From assembly GCF_014695585.1 (NCBI RefSeq), contig NZ_JACJON010000030.1, positions 1 to 64,000 of the forward strand: 64,000 nt of DNA. Direction: 5' to 3'. The stretch's first letter is position 1; every line of letters starts with the position of its first letter. This document shows positions 6,785 to 49,536 of this stretch, one piece after another. Position numbers and translations under genes: made by a program. Under the pieces are notes generated by a model. That model worked only from the letters and a program-made list of their open reading frames with translations, was not told where the DNA came from and did not search any database. The stretch comes from Microcoleus sp. FACHB-831. Lineage in GTDB: Bacteria > Cyanobacteriota > Cyanobacteriia > Cyanobacteriales > FACHB-T130.

Positions 6785-7927
6785 CTACGGCTTAATAGAA
6801 TCGACAGCAGCTTGGACTTTAGTCACGACTTCTGGGGGTAATGGCACGTATCCCAGCTCAGTGCTGTATTTTTGTCCATCAGTTAAGCCCCACTTGAGGA
6901 CATCCTTTAAAGCTTTTGCCTTAGTAGGATTTTCATAGGTCTTATAGGCCAAAATCCAGGTGTAAGTAACTATTGGGTAAGAGTCGGGTCCTTCTGGGTC
7001 TTCAATGAAAGCTCGCAAATTTTCGGGCAGTTTGACTGCGGCAAGCGTCTTGGCAGCAGACTCGCTAGTAGGCTCAACATACTTACCTGCTTTATTTTCC
7101 AGGGCTGCCATAGTCATATTTTGCTGCTTGGCGTACCCATACTCTACATAGCCGATGCTACCTTCGTTTTGCTTAATCTGAGCAGTAACGCCATCGTTGC
7201 CCTTAGCGCCGATACCACCTGGCCAGTTGACGCTTTTGCCTTGCCCTGGGCCACTTTTCCATGCTGGGCTGATAGTACTCAGGTGTTGGGTAAAGACTGC
7301 CGTAGTGCCGCTACCATCTGAACGGTAGACAGGAGTAATATCCTTGTCTGGCAAAGTTAAGCCTGGGTTTAGCTTAACGATTTGCGGATCGTTCCACTTT
7401 TTTATTTTCCCTAAGAAAATATCGGTGTAAACCCCGCGCGATAGCTTCAGACCTTGTACACCAGGCACGTTGTAGGCAAGGACGATGCTACCAGCTGTCA
7501 TAGGTAATAACACTGCACCTTTAGCTACCTTAGCGATTTCCTCGTCTTTCATGGCGACATCGCTAGCAGCAAAGTCCACCGTTCCCTGAGTGAACTGTTC
7601 CACCCCAGCACCGCTGCCCACTGGTTGATAGCTGACTTGTACGTTAGGGTTTACTTTGTTGTACTCAGCAAACCATCTCTGATACAAAGGAGCAGGAAAA
7701 GTAGCACCTTGGCCTTGCAAGGAGGCACTGGCACCGCTGCCTGCTGCGGTAGTTGTAGCAGGCGTGGTAGGGGCTGTAGCCGCAGGACTACCAGCTCCTG
7801 TGTTATTTGGGGCAGAACTTGCGGTCGGAGTTGGTGGGGTGGATGGCCCACATGAAGCGATACTCATTGAAAGGGCGATCGCGGGGAAAAGCCAATTTTG
7901 TCGCTTTGATGGAATTAGAGAAAACAT
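6785..7927 (-). CDS. pstS: Phosphate ABC transporter substrate-binding lipoprotein PstS
   Basis: PstS captures phosphate in the periplasm for the PstCAB importer. The 380-residue precursor has a lipoprotein signal peptide with lipobox SIASC, then a Thr/Ala/Pro-rich linker to about residue 68. The binding domain starts at LQGQGATFPAPLYQRWF and includes VSYQPVGSGAGVEQF and YRSDGSGTTAVFTQHL, the phosphate-contacting loops of the family. No pstCAB genes are adjacent. The gene sits with phoU and sphS/sphR, so phosphate starvation control is likely; no clear tandem Pho box was found upstream. Confidence 0.93.
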   Translation of the reverse strand: MFSLIPSKRQNWLFPAIALSMSIASCGPSTPPTPTASSAPNNTGAGSPAATAPTTPATTTAAGSGASASLQGQGATFPAPLYQRWFAEYNKVNPNVQVSYQPVGSGAGVEQFTQGTVDFAASDVAMKDEEIAKVAKGAVLLPMTAGSIVLAYNVPGVQGLKLSRGVYTDIFLGKIKKWNDPQIVKLNPGLTLPDKDITPVYRSDGSGTTAVFTQHLSTISPAWKSGPGQGKSVNWPGGIGAKGNDGVTAQIKQNEGSIGYVEYGYAKQQNMTMAALENKAGKYVEPTSESAAKTLAAVKLPENLRAFIEDPEGPDSYPIVTYTWILAYKTYENPTKAKALKDVLKWGLTDGQKYSTELGYVPLPPEVVTKVQAAVDSIKP

Positions 7928-26023: not shown

Positions 26024-26098
26024 GCGTAGGTTGGCTTGAGGCACGCAACTCAAAATTGGCAAAAGGTTTATGGGTTTCGCTTGCAATCTACCCATCCT
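26024..26098. repeat. Dispersed hairpin repeat next to the insertion
   Basis: GTAGGTTGG...GGGTTTCGCTTGC...CTACCCATCCTA is an imperfect long hairpin of a kind common in cyanobacterial intergenic DNA. The transposon-like element begins immediately after it. Confidence 0.45.
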
Positions 26099-26103
26099 AA
26101 AAT

Positions 26104-26279
26104 AACCTGAGTTCGGGTTAAGCAGAAGGGAGAAAAAAGGCATCGATATTGAGAGAAGGCTTCTTAGGACGAAGGCAATAGGCAATCAATTAAACTAATC
26201 AGGGGACGAGCGTGTAAAGCTTTGGTGTAATGACTTTTAGCTTACTTGCTTGTCCCTTTCTTATCCCGAACTCACGTTA
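26104..26279. repeat. MITE-like left end of the element
   Basis: This piece has its own two related ends: TAACCTGAGTTCGGGTTAAG at 26103 and CTTATCCCGAACTCACGTTA at 26260-26279, 18 of 20 bases matching when inverted. It looks like a deletion derivative of an insertion sequence keeping both ends but no gene. Its inner end supplies the stop codon of the oxidoreductase. Confidence 0.65.
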
Positions 26280-27041
26280 CATATAAATCGCACGGCTCAG
26301 ACGAACCCCGAAATCGGCATCCGGATTTGTCGTGGCGTCACCAAGCCGCTCTTGCATCACTGCAACTGCTAAGTCCCGGCGCTTTGGCGATCGTGATGCG
26401 TCGGCAGATGCCAGCGCTGCCGCCATCTGTTCGCGCGTGAGATCGGTGCAGTAGCAGGGCGTGCCTGGTTGCTGACGCCACGAATCGGCGAGCGTGCCGG
26501 CGTCGAAAGCATCAAGCCCGGTGTCTTCGACGAGCGCCATCGCCACGGAGCGATCGTTCTCGCGGTCAGCAGCCACAGGGAGGGCAATACGGTCAGGACT
26601 TCCAGCAGGCTTGCCCTTAGTGGCGAAGGAGCCGGACCCGATCGCGTTCCACGCCTTGGCGATTGGCCGGCCTAGCTGTTGGGCTACCCAAAGGCTCTCA
26701 ACCTGCCCGGCCTTGATGGCATCGATCTTGTCGTCGCGGTGGGGATAGTAATTGGACGTGTCGATGACGACTGTCTCGGCTGGTAGGTTAGCGATTAGCG
26801 GCGCGATTGTGGGAATGCGGTTGAGAGGGATCGAGAGGATCACCGCGTCAACGTCCTCCACCGCTTGGGCCGTCGAGACCGCGCGTGCGCCATAAGCCAG
26901 CACATCGGCCTCGATCGTCTCTGGGCCGCGAGAGTTGGCCACCTTCACGTCGTGTCCGGCCTCAGCCAGTTTGCGTGCCAAAGTCTTCCCGATATGACCA
27001 GTACCCAAGATCCCGATGTTCATTTTCTTCGTGTTACTCAT
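26277..27041 (-). CDS. NADP oxidoreductase, F420-dependent-reductase-like
   Basis: The 254-residue protein begins MSNTKKMNIGILGTGHIGK, a Rossmann nucleotide-binding Gly motif, followed by VKVANSRGPE (NADP-type second strand), VILSIPLNRIPTI and VIDTSNYYPHRDDKI. This is the pattern of the NADPH-dependent F420 reductase family, which in bacteria lacking F420 are general NADP oxidoreductases. The ATG at 27041 has GGAGG seven nt upstream; the frame extends far upstream but overlaps the nitroreductase. The stop TAA lies in the terminal repeat, so the original C-terminus was probably replaced. It is the last gene of the cassette. Confidence 0.82.
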   Translation of the reverse strand: MSNTKKMNIGILGTGHIGKTLARKLAEAGHDVKVANSRGPETIEADVLAYGARAVSTAQAVEDVDAVILSIPLNRIPTIAPLIANLPAETVVIDTSNYYPHRDDKIDAIKAGQVESLWVAQQLGRPIAKAWNAIGSGSFATKGKPAGSPDRIALPVAADRENDRSVAMALVEDTGLDAFDAGTLADSWRQQPGTPCYCTDLTREQMAAALASADASRSPKRRDLAVAVMQERLGDATTNPDADFGVRLSRAIYM

Positions 27042-27100
27042 GGTAAATCCTCCGTGTAAATCTTCCGTTTTGAATGTGAATGTCTGATAGTGAATGTCTG

Positions 27101-27829
27101 TTAATTGTGGAAAGTCACGCTTTCTTCGATAGGGGCCTTGTCGATCCGGTAGCGATTGGCGGTGGCCGCCTTGTCGGGATAGCCGAACGAGATACCGAAC
27201 AGCATCTTCAGGGACGGATCGATGCCCAACAGCTCGCGGATCGTGTCGGCGTAGAAGCCGAGCATCGTCTGCGGTATGCCGCCAAGTCCGTGCGCCGTCA
27301 GCGACAGCAACAACGTCTGAGCGTACATTCCGATGTCGCCAGCCACTCGCACATCGTCGCCAAAGGAAGGCATGAAGAGCAACGCGGCGTGCGGCGCACC
27401 AAAAAATTCCAGATTGTATCGCGATGCGAGCCGGCGATCTTCGGTCGCCTCGCGCGGGACGCCAATCGCCTGATAGTAGGCCGCCCCTTGCGCCTTTGAG
27501 CGCTCGCTGTAGACGCCGCAAAAATCGGCGGTGGAGAAGCTGAAGTCCGGTGTCATCCGACCAGCCTCGTCGTCCGCAAGGAGAGCCTTGCTGAGCGCGT
27601 CGCGTGTCGCGCCGGAGACGATGTGAACCTGCCAGGGCTGGGTGTTGCAGTTCGAGGGTGTGCGTTGTGCGTCTTCCAGAACCGAGCGGAGCACAGCGTC
27701 GGGGACAGGGGTTGGCAGGAAACTCCGGACAGAATGACGCTCACGCACAGTCTCTTTAAAAGACAATGTTTGCGACGGCCCGTTTGCTAATTCGATGGTG
27801 CTGCTTGTTACAGGTGTTGTATTTGACAT
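27101..27829 (-). CDS. Nitroreductase-family FMN oxidoreductase
   Basis: Nitroreductases use FMN and NAD(P)H to reduce nitro compounds, quinones or enones. The 242-residue protein shows the FMN-binding Arg/Ser motif ERHSVRSFLPTPV, the AQRTPSNCNTQPWQVHIV segment and the C-terminal GISFGYPDKAATANRYR. The ATG at 27829 gives MSNTTPVTSST; a longer frame from 27853 overlaps the marR stop as ATGA, so translational coupling from 27853 is also possible. High G+C codons mark it as foreign, proteobacterial-like. It is flanked by its likely regulator and an NADP oxidoreductase. Confidence 0.87.
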   Translation of the reverse strand: MSNTTPVTSSTIELANGPSQTLSFKETVRERHSVRSFLPTPVPDAVLRSVLEDAQRTPSNCNTQPWQVHIVSGATRDALSKALLADDEAGRMTPDFSFSTADFCGVYSERSKAQGAAYYQAIGVPREATEDRRLASRYNLEFFGAPHAALLFMPSFGDDVRVAGDIGMYAQTLLLSLTAHGLGGIPQTMLGFYADTIRELLGIDPSLKMLFGISFGYPDKAATANRYRIDKAPIEESVTFHN

Positions 27830-27849
27830 GGTGAATCCCAAAAAGGTGG

Positions 27850-28320
27850 TCATTCGGTAATCCAGTCGGGGGCGTTGGCTGAACGGGGATGACCTAGCCC
27901 GTTCAAGGTGTCGCGAAGCTCGGCAACGTCTTCATCGGAGAGACGGCAGGCCGTCTCGATCTTTTCAGGGATCGAGCACGCTGCCTCGCGAAGTGCCTCG
28001 CCCGCTTCTGTCAGATCGATAAGAACGCGGCGTTCGTCCAGCAGGTCACGAGTGCGCGTCACCAACCCCGCGCTCTCAAGGCGCTTTAAGAGGGGCGTCA
28101 AGGTTCCGTTATCCATACCGAGTTCTTGCCCTACTTCCCCAACAGTGCGCGGGGTGCCCTCGTAGAGAGCGAGCATGACCAGAAACTGAGGATAGGTCAG
28201 GCCCAAAGGCTCAAGAAAGGGCCGATGAAGCCGAATGACGCGGTTCGACGCACTATAGAGGGCAAACGAAAGCTGCCTCCCCACCTGTCGCCGTTGGTTG
28301 ATGTTCGAGTTGTTATCCAT
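27850..28320 (-). CDS. MarR-family regulator, OhrR-like without the sensing cysteine
   Basis: The 156-residue winged-helix protein matches OhrR-type MarR regulators: GRQLSFALYSASNRVIR, LGLTYPQFLVMLAL, the recognition helix DNGTLTPLLKRLESAGLV and the wing DERRVLIDLT. In OhrR the redox cysteine lies in QLCFALY; here Ser18 replaces it, and the only cysteines are Cys115 and Cys125. It therefore probably senses something other than peroxide through that Cys. It is first in the cassette and likely represses its own operon from the promoter at 28343-28370. Confidence 0.86.
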   Translation of the reverse strand: MDNNSNINQRRQVGRQLSFALYSASNRVIRLHRPFLEPLGLTYPQFLVMLALYEGTPRTVGEVGQELGMDNGTLTPLLKRLESAGLVTRTRDLLDERRVLIDLTEAGEALREAACSIPEKIETACRLSDEDVAELRDTLNGLGHPRSANAPDWITE

Positions 28321-28342
28321 TTAAAAATCCAGTCATCAACTA

Positions 28343-28370
28343 TTATATTGTGTACTGTATAATCGTGCAA
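28343..28370 (-). promoter_or_regulatory. Predicted promoter and operator of the cassette
   Basis: Minus strand: TTGCAC, 16 bp, TATAAT, 23 bp before the marR-type start. TATTG and CAATA arms (28346-28372) bracket the promoter in inverted order, a plausible site for autorepression. The stretch is AT-rich within otherwise GC-rich cargo. Confidence 0.5.
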
Positions 28371-28469
28371 TACCTATAATTCACTTTTTTTCTGGGTTTT
28401 CTACGGTGAACCCTATAAGCGCGTGTTTCATCGGGCGTGAAATTGGCGTTTCGCCGGCTTTGGCTTGGC

Positions 28470-28592
28470 TCACCGCTTGAGCATGAGGCGGATCGTGGAC
28501 ACGTATACGAAGGTGCTGCCGCTAGGCGGCAGCGCCTCATAATTTTTGCTCAGACGCCGATTGTGACCCAGTGGGGCGAAAGTGCGTTCATC
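28470..28592 (-). pseudogene. IS5-family transposase remnant (C-terminal end)
   Basis: The frame reads ERTFAPLGHNRRLSKNYEAL ... FVYVSTIRLMLKR then stop. This matches the conserved C-terminus of IS5-type DDE transposases (ERTFAWLG.RRLSKDYE ... IRLMLRRL). It is cut off at its upstream side exactly where the right 70-bp repeat begins. The G+C-rich sequence suggests it arrived together with the cargo from another bacterium. Confidence 0.72.
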
Positions 28593-28656
28593 CTAAAAAG
28601 CCTTCTCTCAATATCGATGCCTTTTTTCTCCCTTCTGCTTAACCCGAACTCAGGTT
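28587..28656. repeat. Right terminal inverted repeat of the element
   Basis: Inverted copy of 26104-26173 with two mismatches; followed by the direct repeat AAAAT. Confidence 0.85.
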
Positions 28657-28759
28657 AAAATAACAGACCGTTTATATAAAGAGAAAATCCGGCTTAAATT
28701 TAATCAGCCGGATGTTGGGCGTAATACAACTAAATTGCTAAAGCTAATCCCTGCTTTTC

Positions 28760-30547: not shown

Positions 30548-31147
30548 TTAATCGGGTAAAAGACCAAACTTATAATTATCGAGAATTGCGCCAAGTTTTT
30601 TAGCATACGCAGCACTGGACAAGTTGGCTACTATAACAGACTGCAAAGCATTGCCAGCGCGATCGTAAATAGCTGCGGCAAACCTTGAAGGGTCATGTCG
30701 CGCCCGATAATAAATACCATCAGGTGAGTCGGGATGTTGCCACAGCGCTAGTGCCCATCGTCGCGCAACATCATGGGGTACTTCTGTAGTTAGTCGTGCA
30801 TCAGCACCAAGGTGAGCAAGTCCCGCTCCTGTTAAATCTACAAATTTGAGCGATCGCATTGATTCTATTCGCGAAATGCAGACTTTGTTGAGTGCGCTGG
30901 CTGTAATTGTATTAATGCCAGTAGATTGACCGAATGTTTCAATAAAACAGCATTCTTCGTCATCTCCCATATATAAAACGCCGTATTCTTTATCTGGAGC
31001 AGTGAAGCGATTTTCCCCTGTAAATCCGAAGTAAAGGGGACTGTATTTGGTTTGATGAATGCGAAACCAAGGCTTGCTCAGAGTTACAATTGGCAGCGAT
31101 CGCTTTCCTAGATCCGCTGGTGGTTCGGGATGATGTTCCGGGTTCAC
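30548..31147 (-). CDS. RES-domain toxin (NAD+-degrading type II toxin)
   Basis: RES toxins deplete NAD+ in growth-arrested cells. The 199-residue protein has the family's conserved Arg (WFRIHQTKYSPLYF), Glu (CCFIETFGQ) and Ser/Arg region (GIYYRARHDPSRFAAAIYDR). Its start ATG overlaps the stop of the upstream antitoxin gene (ATGA), a coupling typical for type II toxin-antitoxin pairs. The length fits the longer RES subfamily. Confidence 0.87.
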   Translation of the reverse strand: MNPEHHPEPPADLGKRSLPIVTLSKPWFRIHQTKYSPLYFGFTGENRFTAPDKEYGVLYMGDDEECCFIETFGQSTGINTITASALNKVCISRIESMRSLKFVDLTGAGLAHLGADARLTTEVPHDVARRWALALWQHPDSPDGIYYRARHDPSRFAAAIYDRAGNALQSVIVANLSSAAYAKKLGAILDNYKFGLLPD

Positions 31148-31797
31148 GCCGCACCGTGCTTCCCGTACTCGCGTGCAGCTTCAATTACTGCTTCTACATC
31201 ACCGCGCAGCAGCAGCGTTAATGGTGATTCGCCATTTAAGCGCGTATTGCCATTTAACATAAAGGCTGTTTGCATCCAGGGATCTTGGTCGTGCAATTCG
31301 GCTAGTACAGACTCAAGTCCTGCAAGCGTACCCCCCTGTGCAAATTGCCAGACGGGATAAACATAGCCGCGCCTTCCCATAGACAAACCAATGAGTTGCC
31401 CTTTTTTACGCCGTTTATCGATAGCCTGACGCGAGATGTTTAATATTTCTGCTGCTTCTTGGCTGGATAAAACTCCACCATTAGCATTGAGCAGTTGTTC
31501 TCTAGCTCTTAGTCCGCGCACTCTTGCAGCAGCTAGCGGATCGCTCTCGATCAACATTTCGCCAAATTCTGGCATTTCCAGTAAACGCAACAGCACTTCA
31601 CTGTCAGAGGAAGCCTTTGCCGCCAGTTCTGGGGAAGTTCGCTCTAAAAGACTGGCTAAACCGTTGAGTGCCCTACTGACGAGGATACGCTTAAGCGAGG
31701 AGTTTTTGCCGTTTAGATTCGCTGTTGCGTCTCCTTCGTCATTTGGCGACATATCTTGGATAGCTTCTTCAAAGAGCATCCGCGTTTCAGCTAGCAT
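31144..31797 (-). CDS. Xre/ParS-type antitoxin of the RES module
   Basis: The 217-residue protein carries a helix-turn-helix (LSSQEAAEILNISRQAIDKRRK) followed by a C-terminal segment (NGESPLTLLLRGDVEAVIEAAREYG) like the MbcA/ParS toxin-binding domain (DUF2384). The N-terminal 100 residues are helical and unrecognised, making it longer than many RES antitoxins. It overlaps the toxin gene by 4 nt and is expressed first, and presumably represses the operon. The promoter lies in the HIP1-rich region upstream. Confidence 0.83.
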   Translation of the reverse strand: MLAETRMLFEEAIQDMSPNDEGDATANLNGKNSSLKRILVSRALNGLASLLERTSPELAAKASSDSEVLLRLLEMPEFGEMLIESDPLAAARVRGLRAREQLLNANGGVLSSQEAAEILNISRQAIDKRRKKGQLIGLSMGRRGYVYPVWQFAQGGTLAGLESVLAELHDQDPWMQTAFMLNGNTRLNGESPLTLLLRGDVEAVIEAAREYGKHGAA

Positions 31798-34995: not shown

Positions 34996-35272
34996 GGCTT
35001 GATTTTACTTTTCTTAACTAAAAGCTTTACATTTGTTAATATGCTAGCGAGACTCTGAAGGGAAGTTATTGCTCTAAGAGCATATTCCTGAAGAGAGAAG
35101 TAAAAAAAATATTATGAATTAGCGTTTTCTAGGTGCAAAGCGATAAAAGCTAGCGCTTGATTTAACACAAAAAAATAAAATTAAAATGCTGCTGAAGTCT
35201 GAAGGTAAAGCGCGATCGCGTTTTACATCCAGTTGCTTCCGCAGCACCATACGTTTATTATTTTTGTGTTAA

Positions 35273-43318: not shown

Positions 43319-44845
43319 ATGTCTCAGCTCTTATTGATTAAGAACCTGCCTTTCATTCTGCGTCAGCCGACTCTAGTTGCAACTGTTGGCTCGTTGGGCA
43401 TCCACGCGCTAGTGGCGATCGCCCTGCCAAGTTTATCCGCCTCCTCCAAAACAGCACAGCAGGATGAGAAAGGGCAGGTGCAAGTAGTGGAGTTAACACC
43501 AGCCGAGATGAGCCGCCTGCCGCAACTAGCAACGCAGCCGCTACCGCCTAGTGCAATCCAAAACCAGCCGTTGTCGGAGTTGCCGTCGCCGCCGTTGCCA
43601 CCGCCGCCGCCCCCTGACTCTAGCCTCTCAACGGTGCCCGTGCCACCGACAAGAACCTCGGAATCATCGCCACGTATAAGTTTACGGCTGCCTGCTGACG
43701 ACTCGGTTAGGGAAACAACGCCTAATAGAGTCAGGGAAGAAAGCAGAACCGAGACTTCTTCAAGGTATCAAGTGTATGGCGATCGCGTCTTTAAGGGACG
43801 GAGGTTTGCTTTTAGCCCACCCAAGACAACAAGCGATCGCCAGCCACAAGGATTTAATAACAGTAACCCCAGGGAACCTCGCCCCAGCAGAAGGGTAGCT
43901 GCTTCTAGCAATCCCCCAGCGGAAAGCAAGACGCGAGTGTATGACAAGCCGATTTTTAAAGAACGGCAGTTTTCCCCTCTCGACCAACAACAGGCGCAAA
44001 GCGATCGCCTCAACGAACAAGTTGATAACAATCCTCGCCAGCCGCTTAGAAGATATGGCAAAATCCCTGGAGGGGTAGAGCCTGACACTGATTTGCCGCC
44101 TACAATTGAGCCAAGTCCCACTGAGATGGCGGCGGCACCAGAACCAAAAGCTAGCGACAAACCTACGCCAGCGCCAAACCCTACTGAGATGGCGACACCA
44201 GAACCAAAAGCTAGCGACAAGCCCACACCGCAGCCACTTCCTAGCGAAACGCCGACACCAGAACCAAAAGCTAGCGACAGGCCAACACCAACGCCAAGCC
44301 CAACCCAAACGCCTACTTCCCAACAACGTTCGCCTGAAAAAATTGCCCTCCAGACATTAGACGATCAGCGGATGGCGAGACTTAGGGCGGATATAGAGCA
44401 GCAACGAGAAGCTTTAAAGCGTAAGGATGCTAACACCATTTACAATGAAACGCAGCGAAATATCGGCGCTTCGTTGGCAAAAGTGGCTAACGAACAAGAC
44501 AAAGAAACCCAGCAGAGTTTTGTCGATTTGTTGGATAAAGCGCGTAACGGGAAAGGGGAGACAATTACCATTATTGGTAGCTATCCGAGAGACGCTTGCC
44601 TGAAGAAGCTGGATGGTACTGCTAAAGTTTCTACAATAGCGGATGCTAATGGGAAGGTAATCGATGAGCCTATGATGATTGCTTCCGATTACAAAATCTT
44701 TGAGTCAGAAGCACTCTCGGCTGTTAAGAAACACACCTTTGACAAAACTGGTAAGAAAAAGCCCTACCTGGTCGAAGTTAAGTTTGAATACAAGAAGGAA
44801 ATTTGTCCGCAGTTGAGCCTTCCAGAAGCCCCACCTGCGGGTTAA
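43319..44845 (+). CDS. TonB-like energy-transducer protein
   Basis: The protein has 508 residues from MSQLLLIKNL. One membrane helix (VATVGSLGIHALVAIAL) is followed by a long Pro-rich periplasmic stalk with poly-Pro and three repeats of the type TPEPKASDKPTP (near 276-345). The C-terminal 130 residues resemble a TonB end domain (CLKKLDGTAKVSTIADANG, ALSAVKKHTF, YLVEVKFEY). This suggests energy transfer to outer-membrane receptors, but no exbBD or receptor lies nearby. Start chosen over an upstream TTG. Confidence 0.72.
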   Translation: MSQLLLIKNLPFILRQPTLVATVGSLGIHALVAIALPSLSASSKTAQQDEKGQVQVVELTPAEMSRLPQLATQPLPPSAIQNQPLSELPSPPLPPPPPPDSSLSTVPVPPTRTSESSPRISLRLPADDSVRETTPNRVREESRTETSSRYQVYGDRVFKGRRFAFSPPKTTSDRQPQGFNNSNPREPRPSRRVAASSNPPAESKTRVYDKPIFKERQFSPLDQQQAQSDRLNEQVDNNPRQPLRRYGKIPGGVEPDTDLPPTIEPSPTEMAAAPEPKASDKPTPAPNPTEMATPEPKASDKPTPQPLPSETPTPEPKASDRPTPTPSPTQTPTSQQRSPEKIALQTLDDQRMARLRADIEQQREALKRKDANTIYNETQRNIGASLAKVANEQDKETQQSFVDLLDKARNGKGETITIIGSYPRDACLKKLDGTAKVSTIADANGKVIDEPMMIASDYKIFESEALSAVKKHTFDKTGKKKPYLVEVKFEYKKEICPQLSLPEAPPAG

Positions 44846-44961
44846 GGATGGGTTCCAGAAGTGCGATCGCGCTTCTAGAACTCATCCTTATTTCTCTGAA
44901 CTCCGGACTATTACAACGGCTTGCAGGATAATAGAGCGTTGGACTGTTGTTACCATCCTCT

Positions 44962-49456: not shown

Positions 49457-49471
49457 AACAAGGCAAAAATG

Positions 49472-49521
49472 AAAAGTAAAAGGGCAAAAGCAAGAAGTTT
49501 TTCTTTTGCCCTTTTACTTTT
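49472..49521. terminator. Bidirectional terminator between convergent genes
   Basis: A perfect 19-bp stem, AAAAGTAAAAGGGCAAAAG and its complement, flanks a 12-nt loop. A and T tracts at the stem ends serve both the DUF5895-like gene and mltA. Confidence 0.85.
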
Positions 49522-49536
49522 TATTTTGAAAAGAGA

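Follow-up and report, generated by a model that had tools for sequence, protein, structure and literature searches.

Between inverted arms at 26103–26177 and 28583–28657 of the window (the whole stretch of 64,000 nucleotides from Microcoleus sp. FACHB-831 analyzed here) lies what is very probably a nonautonomous IS982-family cassette, which moved as one unit between two left ends of the insertion sequence (IS) and whose cargo was remodeled later. An earlier note, made from the sequence alone, had proposed that foreign cargo inserted here as a unit between MITE-like ends and without a transposase of its own. That much stands, but its further proposal, that the enzyme is supplied from the same genome, is not supported.

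When the window is compared with itself, the top inverted match (123 bits) is a pair of arms of 75 nt, 96% complementary, the left on the plus strand and the right on the minus strand. The next match scores 77 bits (two palindromes), and three first-order Markov random sequences used as a control reached at most 39.2 bits. A 20-nt end pattern (three mismatches or fewer) was located three times in the window, vs. 0.01 expected: at each outer end and at an inner end (26259–26278). The inverted repeats first described as 70 bp long are therefore real, with the arms corrected to 75 nt at 96%. The same comparison also revealed long imperfect palindromes at 35162–35272 (77% self-complementary over 114 aligned positions), 49466–49527 (87% over 62), and 44843–44890 (87% over 48).

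Read with the AC terminus that is standard for IS982 (ACCTGAG...CTCAGGT), the unit is flanked by the same 7-mer, TAAAATA, at 26098–26104 and 28656–28662. The AAAAT originally noted on both sides lies inside this 7-bp duplication. By the same rule, the corresponding unit in a relative (genome G024) is flanked by TAATTA, and clean duplications were found at two of five solo IS copies checked, TAATCTA (genome G003, locus L026) and TATTTA (G024, L030), and were absent at the other three (L025 and two in L029). Because all four duplications have TA at the start and at the end, their length and phase are formally ambiguous (the duplication may be shorter and the end correspondingly longer). In locus L025 (G024:C9), a lone IS982 right end (7626–7713) and a near-full-length IS copy lie ~5.5 kb apart and enclose two similar gene pairs, possibly forming another IS982-bounded segment.

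The two sides of the unit are unlike. The arms are inverted copies, as noted earlier, but the left side is a whole 177-bp MITE (26103–26279, plus strand) with an inner right end, consisting of the left 88 bp and the right 89 bp of an IS of ~975 bp whose middle is gone. Its outer end, ACCTGAG, starts at 26105, and its inner end, ...CTCACGT, runs up to 26277. The search for an insertion sequence with the same ends succeeded: the MITE matches both ends of ~975-bp IS copies in the relatives G024 (G024:C17:217973-218947, 98% and 94%) and G003 (G003:C13:42706-43676, 89% and 88%). The G003 copy has a 292-aa transposase ORF matching NF033520 (IS982) at E 7.5e-76 (254.9 bits vs. a cut-off of 130). Passages of a family review (PMC7335449) give AC as the conserved terminus of IS982 and describe its duplications as variable. 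With a 5'-AC terminus and a match to a transposase-encoding copy, the MITE-like ends are derived from the IS982 family.

The right side is a lone left end (28583–28657, minus strand), of which only 75–79 bp are present in the window and in genomes G024, G406, and G407. In all four it is joined to a degenerate scrap of an IS5-family transposase C terminus (~28410–28590, minus strand, recognized from its translation). The G407 and G024 versions of this scrap match the NF033580 IS5 transposase at 8e-5 and 1e-4, with 22 bits vs. a cut-off of 110. With a complete MITE on the left and nothing but a left end on the right, both outer boundaries of the unit are left ends. It is not a classical composite transposon with a complete IS at each end, as its right side is a partial left end. 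We also considered that a change at the inner end (CACGTTA vs. CAGGTTA in G024) inactivated the MITE, so that only the outer pair of ends could be used. This idea was dropped, as G406 has the change too, and it is further undercut by another IS982 copy in G024 (L029) with the same ACGT termini. A second miniature type of the same IS982 lineage, an internal-deletion derivative of ~362 bp, occurs in G406 (L165 669-1031; G406:C12:187169-187531).

All three cargo genes named in the earlier note were confirmed, each on the minus strand: an NADP oxidoreductase with an F420_oxidored domain (26277–27041, 254 aa; PF03807, E 5.1e-21), whose stop codon overlaps the inner IS982 end; a nitroreductase (27101–27853, 250 aa; PF00881, E 3.1e-28), whose nearest solved relative is NfnB (2wzv, E 2.5e-57); and an OhrR-like MarR-family regulator (27850–28320; PF01047). 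Upstream of the regulator gene is a promoter/operator-like dyad (28338–28370, minus strand; −10 TATAAT, weak −35 TTGCAC), judged by eye from the upstream sequences of 11 loci placed side by side. Eight cyanobacterial copies (the window, G024, G406, G407, L051, L053, L054, and L055) have forms of the dyad close to ACTATTATGTAGTNCNCTATATAATAGT, and in the better ones it overlaps a promoter-like TTGAAC-17-TATAAT, again a visual reading. In the window copy both the left half of the dyad and the −35 are altered, and its promoter-like site was not among the matches of a simple consensus promoter scan. Based on the protein families and the promoter dyad, the cargo probably forms a small detoxification operon that regulates itself.

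It is rather unlikely that the operon is instead an organic-peroxide response module like OhrR-Ohr and does not serve nitro-compound or quinone detoxification. The nearest solved structures of the regulator are those of OhrR (2pex and 2pfb, E 5.4e-36 and 4.1e-35), and OhrR is also its best NCBIfam match, under the cut-off (131.6 of 200 bits). However, ohr is absent among the three genes of the unit, and alignment to 2pex/2pfb places a Ser where OhrR has its N-terminal reactive cysteine. This cysteine is presumably the sensing residue, and the usual sensing chemistry is therefore missing. Elsewhere in the window, a gene for a RES-domain protein (30548–31147, minus strand; PF08808, 1e-13) overlaps a gene with weak Xre/MbcA/ParS-antitoxin similarity (31144–31797, minus strand; 25.2 bits vs. 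a cut-off of 27.8), and the two are a probable RES/Xre-type toxin-antitoxin pair.

A 265-nt probe over the junction of IS5 scrap and lone end matched eight of 388 genomes of the order. The whole junction was matched in four (the window's own genome, G024, G406, and G407), and in the other four only the IS end. The three relatives belong to one genus of the same order as the window genome, with G024 placed in another family than the latter; we refer to this genus as the Microcoleus group, a label that rests solely on the title of G407 (MAG Microcoleus vaginatus WJT46-NPBG5). Over the cassette, locus L052 is the same sequence as G407. The four carriers have the unit at three different sites, and the flanks of the window unit match no G024, G406, or G407 locus. 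In G024 the order is a full-length IS (in the place of the MITE, with a broken transposase frame), a 3' fragment of the oxidoreductase gene, an NmrA-like gene, the oxidoreductase, nitroreductase, and MarR genes, the IS5-transposase scrap, and the lone end. G406 and G407 have the unit at one shared site, where the IS is reduced to its right 88 bp and the outer left end is lost; no target duplication was found at these copies. Both G024 and G406 have the oxidoreductase fragment plus a full copy, and both the window and G407 lack the NmrA-like gene and have one full oxidoreductase gene directly after the IS end. On the simplest reading of these sequences, the latter form would derive from the former by a deletion through recombination between the two oxidoreductase copies.

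The proposed check for empty sites, run on relatives, found counterparts for both sites in the Microcoleus group. The G024 site is empty in G406 and G407, in which the joined flanks match at 88% and 86% over ~700 joined bases with no insert. At the G406/G407 site, the joined flanks match in G024, where 124 bases of different sequence, and no cassette, lie between them. The unit is thus both present and absent at two sites within one genus. Together with the target duplications in the window and G024, these two empty counterparts bear out insertion as one unit. At the site in the window, the right flank was matched in five relatives, drawn from other genera, at 65% to 72% identity; the left flank was not matched in the DUF3370 gene regions of those five, and no empty counterpart of this insertion was found. 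The PGA_cap neighbor of the unit had a good match only in G002 (57%) among six genomes of the family, its own included. A phylum-wide DNA search matched one of 386 genomes, the window's own; the three Microcoleus-group carriers were outside the draw or missed, so the result is not evidence of absence.

The cluster might instead have arrived by another vector, with two pieces of IS982 inserted on either side later, such that the unit never transposed. In keeping with this, BLASTN at E 1e-3 detected no IS982 end in seven loci that hold all or part of the cluster: L051 (Nodosilinea), L053 (Nostoc foliaceum), L054 (Nostoc XA010), L055 (Gloeocapsa), L056 (Chthoniobacteraceae), L193 (in G466), and L194 (in G413). 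It should be noted that L055 and L195 are the same DNA on one contig and are counted once, and that the L054 stretch extends only ~490 bases beyond the cassette and would not reveal a more distant end. Gene content varies among these loci, and the nitroreductase was not detected in L055/L195, L193, or L194. In the Gloeocapsa locus, a gene of 362 aa (L055 5419-6507), quinone-oxidoreductase-like by eye, is found at the place of the nitroreductase. A MarR gene at E 1e-40 or better was found in eight of 388 genomes of the order, the window's own included. Because cassette loci without detected IS982 ends exist, the cluster also travels by other means. However, separate insertions on either side would be expected to leave each piece with its own duplication, whereas in the window and G024 it is the outer ends that have the duplications. 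The same junction of lone end and IS5 scrap recurs at three different sites, and for both sites in the other genus an empty counterpart exists. We therefore regard separate insertion as improbable. The observation that the earlier note had named as fatal to its reading, orthologous loci with the genes and without the repeats, has a partial counterpart in these seven loci. None of them matches the window flanks (BLASTN or TBLASTX, 1e-5), and so none is the orthologous site.

The cargo is foreign. Its GC content is 57.8% vs. 45.8% outside, as the earlier note had suggested from its GC-rich interior, and the maximum among 568 other (overlapping) 2303-nt windows is 52.0%. Its third-position GC is also unlike that of its neighbors. 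The absence of GCGATCGC from the cargo, also reported previously, is correct, but is weak evidence taken alone because only 3.06 occurrences are expected at the rate of the window. Although the GC and third-position GC of the unit differ from those of its neighbors and the reported contamination of the genome is 3.77%, an assembly or binning artefact, in which a contaminant piece was joined into a cyanobacterial contig, is highly implausible given that the same unit occurs in three other assemblies, in flanks common to congeners, and that the window and G024 have matching duplications.

Searches of plasmid records and of the genome collection identified no donor of the cargo. Among 306 plasmid records matching the oxidoreductase at the protein level, the best (Paracoccus) reached 77%, with 24 at 60%–80% and 282 below. 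Plasmid DNA matched part of the 2303-nt cargo in 53 records (one at 80%–90%, 52 at 60%–80%), none of which covered 80% of it. Among the best 80 of 162 MarR matches in the genome collection (exact peptide patterns), the closest are in other cyanobacteria (88%–95%, L051–L055), followed by those of Chthoniobacteraceae, Capsulimonas, and Paludisphaera (74%–83%), and the remainder are at 66% or less and mostly from proteobacteria.

Within the cargo, informative sites before 27020 are like G407 (Microcoleus) in 224 cases and like L053 (Nostoc foliaceum) in 17. Between 27060 and 27880 the counts are 6 vs. 290, and after 27900 they are 55 vs. 4. The nitroreductase gene and the edges of both its neighbors were replaced as one tract by a Nostoc-like allele (~27004–27900, edges approximate; Nostoc foliaceum-like, with Microcoleus-like flanks). 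Purifying selection is seen for the oxidoreductase compared with G407 (dN/dS 0.17) and for MarR compared with L053 (0.13) and L056 (0.14). The MarR values are 0.39–0.63 vs. the three Microcoleus-group copies, 0.48 vs. L051, and 0.69 vs. L054, and the nitroreductase value is 0.34 vs. L053. Given these MarR and nitroreductase values, recent constraint is not strong; those for MarR are raised because the 3' end of the gene is inside the recombined tract.

In the history that we prefer, a foreign cluster of MarR, nitroreductase, and oxidoreductase genes would first have received an IS982 element at the stop codon of its oxidoreductase gene. On the other side there would have been a second IS982 left end, cut at approximately base 79 and fused to the IS5 transposase scrap. 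An IS982 transposase would then have moved everything between the two outward-facing left ends as one unit, leaving target duplications of 6–7 bp, as observed at two sites. In the lineage of the window, the flanking IS would have lost its middle to become the 177-bp MITE, before or after the insertion. Homologous recombination would account both for the deletion between the oxidoreductase copies (G024/G406 vs. the G407/window form) and for the replacement of the nitroreductase gene, which the informative sites show. Since a sister copy keeps a full-length, broken IS at the place of the MITE, the unit looks like an eroded IS982 composite, which fits better than the capture of cargo by pre-existing MITE-like ends proposed earlier. 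More tentatively, a cassette with two IS982 left ends could act as a shuttle, in which transposition would spread the shell across sites and genera, and homologous recombination inside the shell would swap single genes, here the nitroreductase gene, between lineages, so that cyanobacteria would trade and reshuffle a redox operon.

As for the enzyme, the window unit has no transposase gene (ORFs of at least 60 aa and a family scan of the three genes) and contains only the IS5 C-terminal scrap, in agreement with the earlier note. The draft assembly of the same genome (85 contigs, 99.44% complete) yielded only fragments of IS982 transposase, the best at 55.6 bits vs. a cut-off of 130, so neither the unit nor the assembly presents the intact transposase of an autonomous IS982, and supply from elsewhere in the genome finds no support. 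In G024, which has further copies, the five IS982 copies read (L024, L025, two in L029, and L030) have broken frames, and the G003 copy (L026) is intact. With no intact IS982 transposase detected, the unit is probably stranded in its present genome; the arrival of such an enzyme, or a gene overlooked in the draft, would change this.

The analysis provides a worked case, with empty sites, of IS982 ends moving passengers in cyanobacteria, from a form with a full-length IS (G024) to a MITE form (the window). Given gene-by-gene replacement inside the cassette, the diversification of small accessory operons during their spread becomes testable. In searches of the open literature (titles and opening abstracts, with few subscription journals), no IS982 passenger cassette in cyanobacteria was named; a general survey (PMC9208149) contains the words IS982, cyanobacteria, and MITE. 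In the passages compared, the unit resembles IS982-family elements such as ISNsp1 of Nostoc in its AC termini, ~1-kb parent, and variable duplications (6 bp in ISNsp1) (PMC7335449), and an IS982-derived MITE is already known, from ISCca4 of Cardinium (PMC9769881). Genes between IS982 ends are not described in those passages of the two papers, and the main text of the former lacks the words “MITE” and “passenger,” and that of the latter “composite” and “cargo.”

Other systems place miniature elements around other DNA. According to the passages compared, the composite-like TIME-COMP of Pseudomonas (PMC4133298), which the unit resembles in its way of working, is bounded on each side by an entire miniature element with Tn3-family ends, and the MITE-bounded integrons and MITE-297 region of Acinetobacter (PMC6382973) have two copies of one MITE, whereas here the ends are IS982 and consist of one MITE and one partial end. 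The features compared here fit the mobile insertion cassette, defined in passages of PMC3913671 by passengers between inverted IS-type ends, no transposase gene, a target duplication, and mobilization in trans. The window unit has passenger genes between two inverted repeats, no transposase gene inside, and the TAAAATA duplication, as do MIC231 of Bacillus cereus and mic-qnrD in their corresponding features; by analogy, it too may have been mobilized in trans. Unlike MIC231, which has IS231A ends (cited in PMC3913671), it has IS982-family ends and is found in cyanobacteria, and unlike both MIC231 and mic-qnrD as described there, it has a complete MITE on one side and a lone left end on the other. 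The kind of element is thus already known, and what is new is a mobile insertion cassette with IS982 ends and unlike sides.
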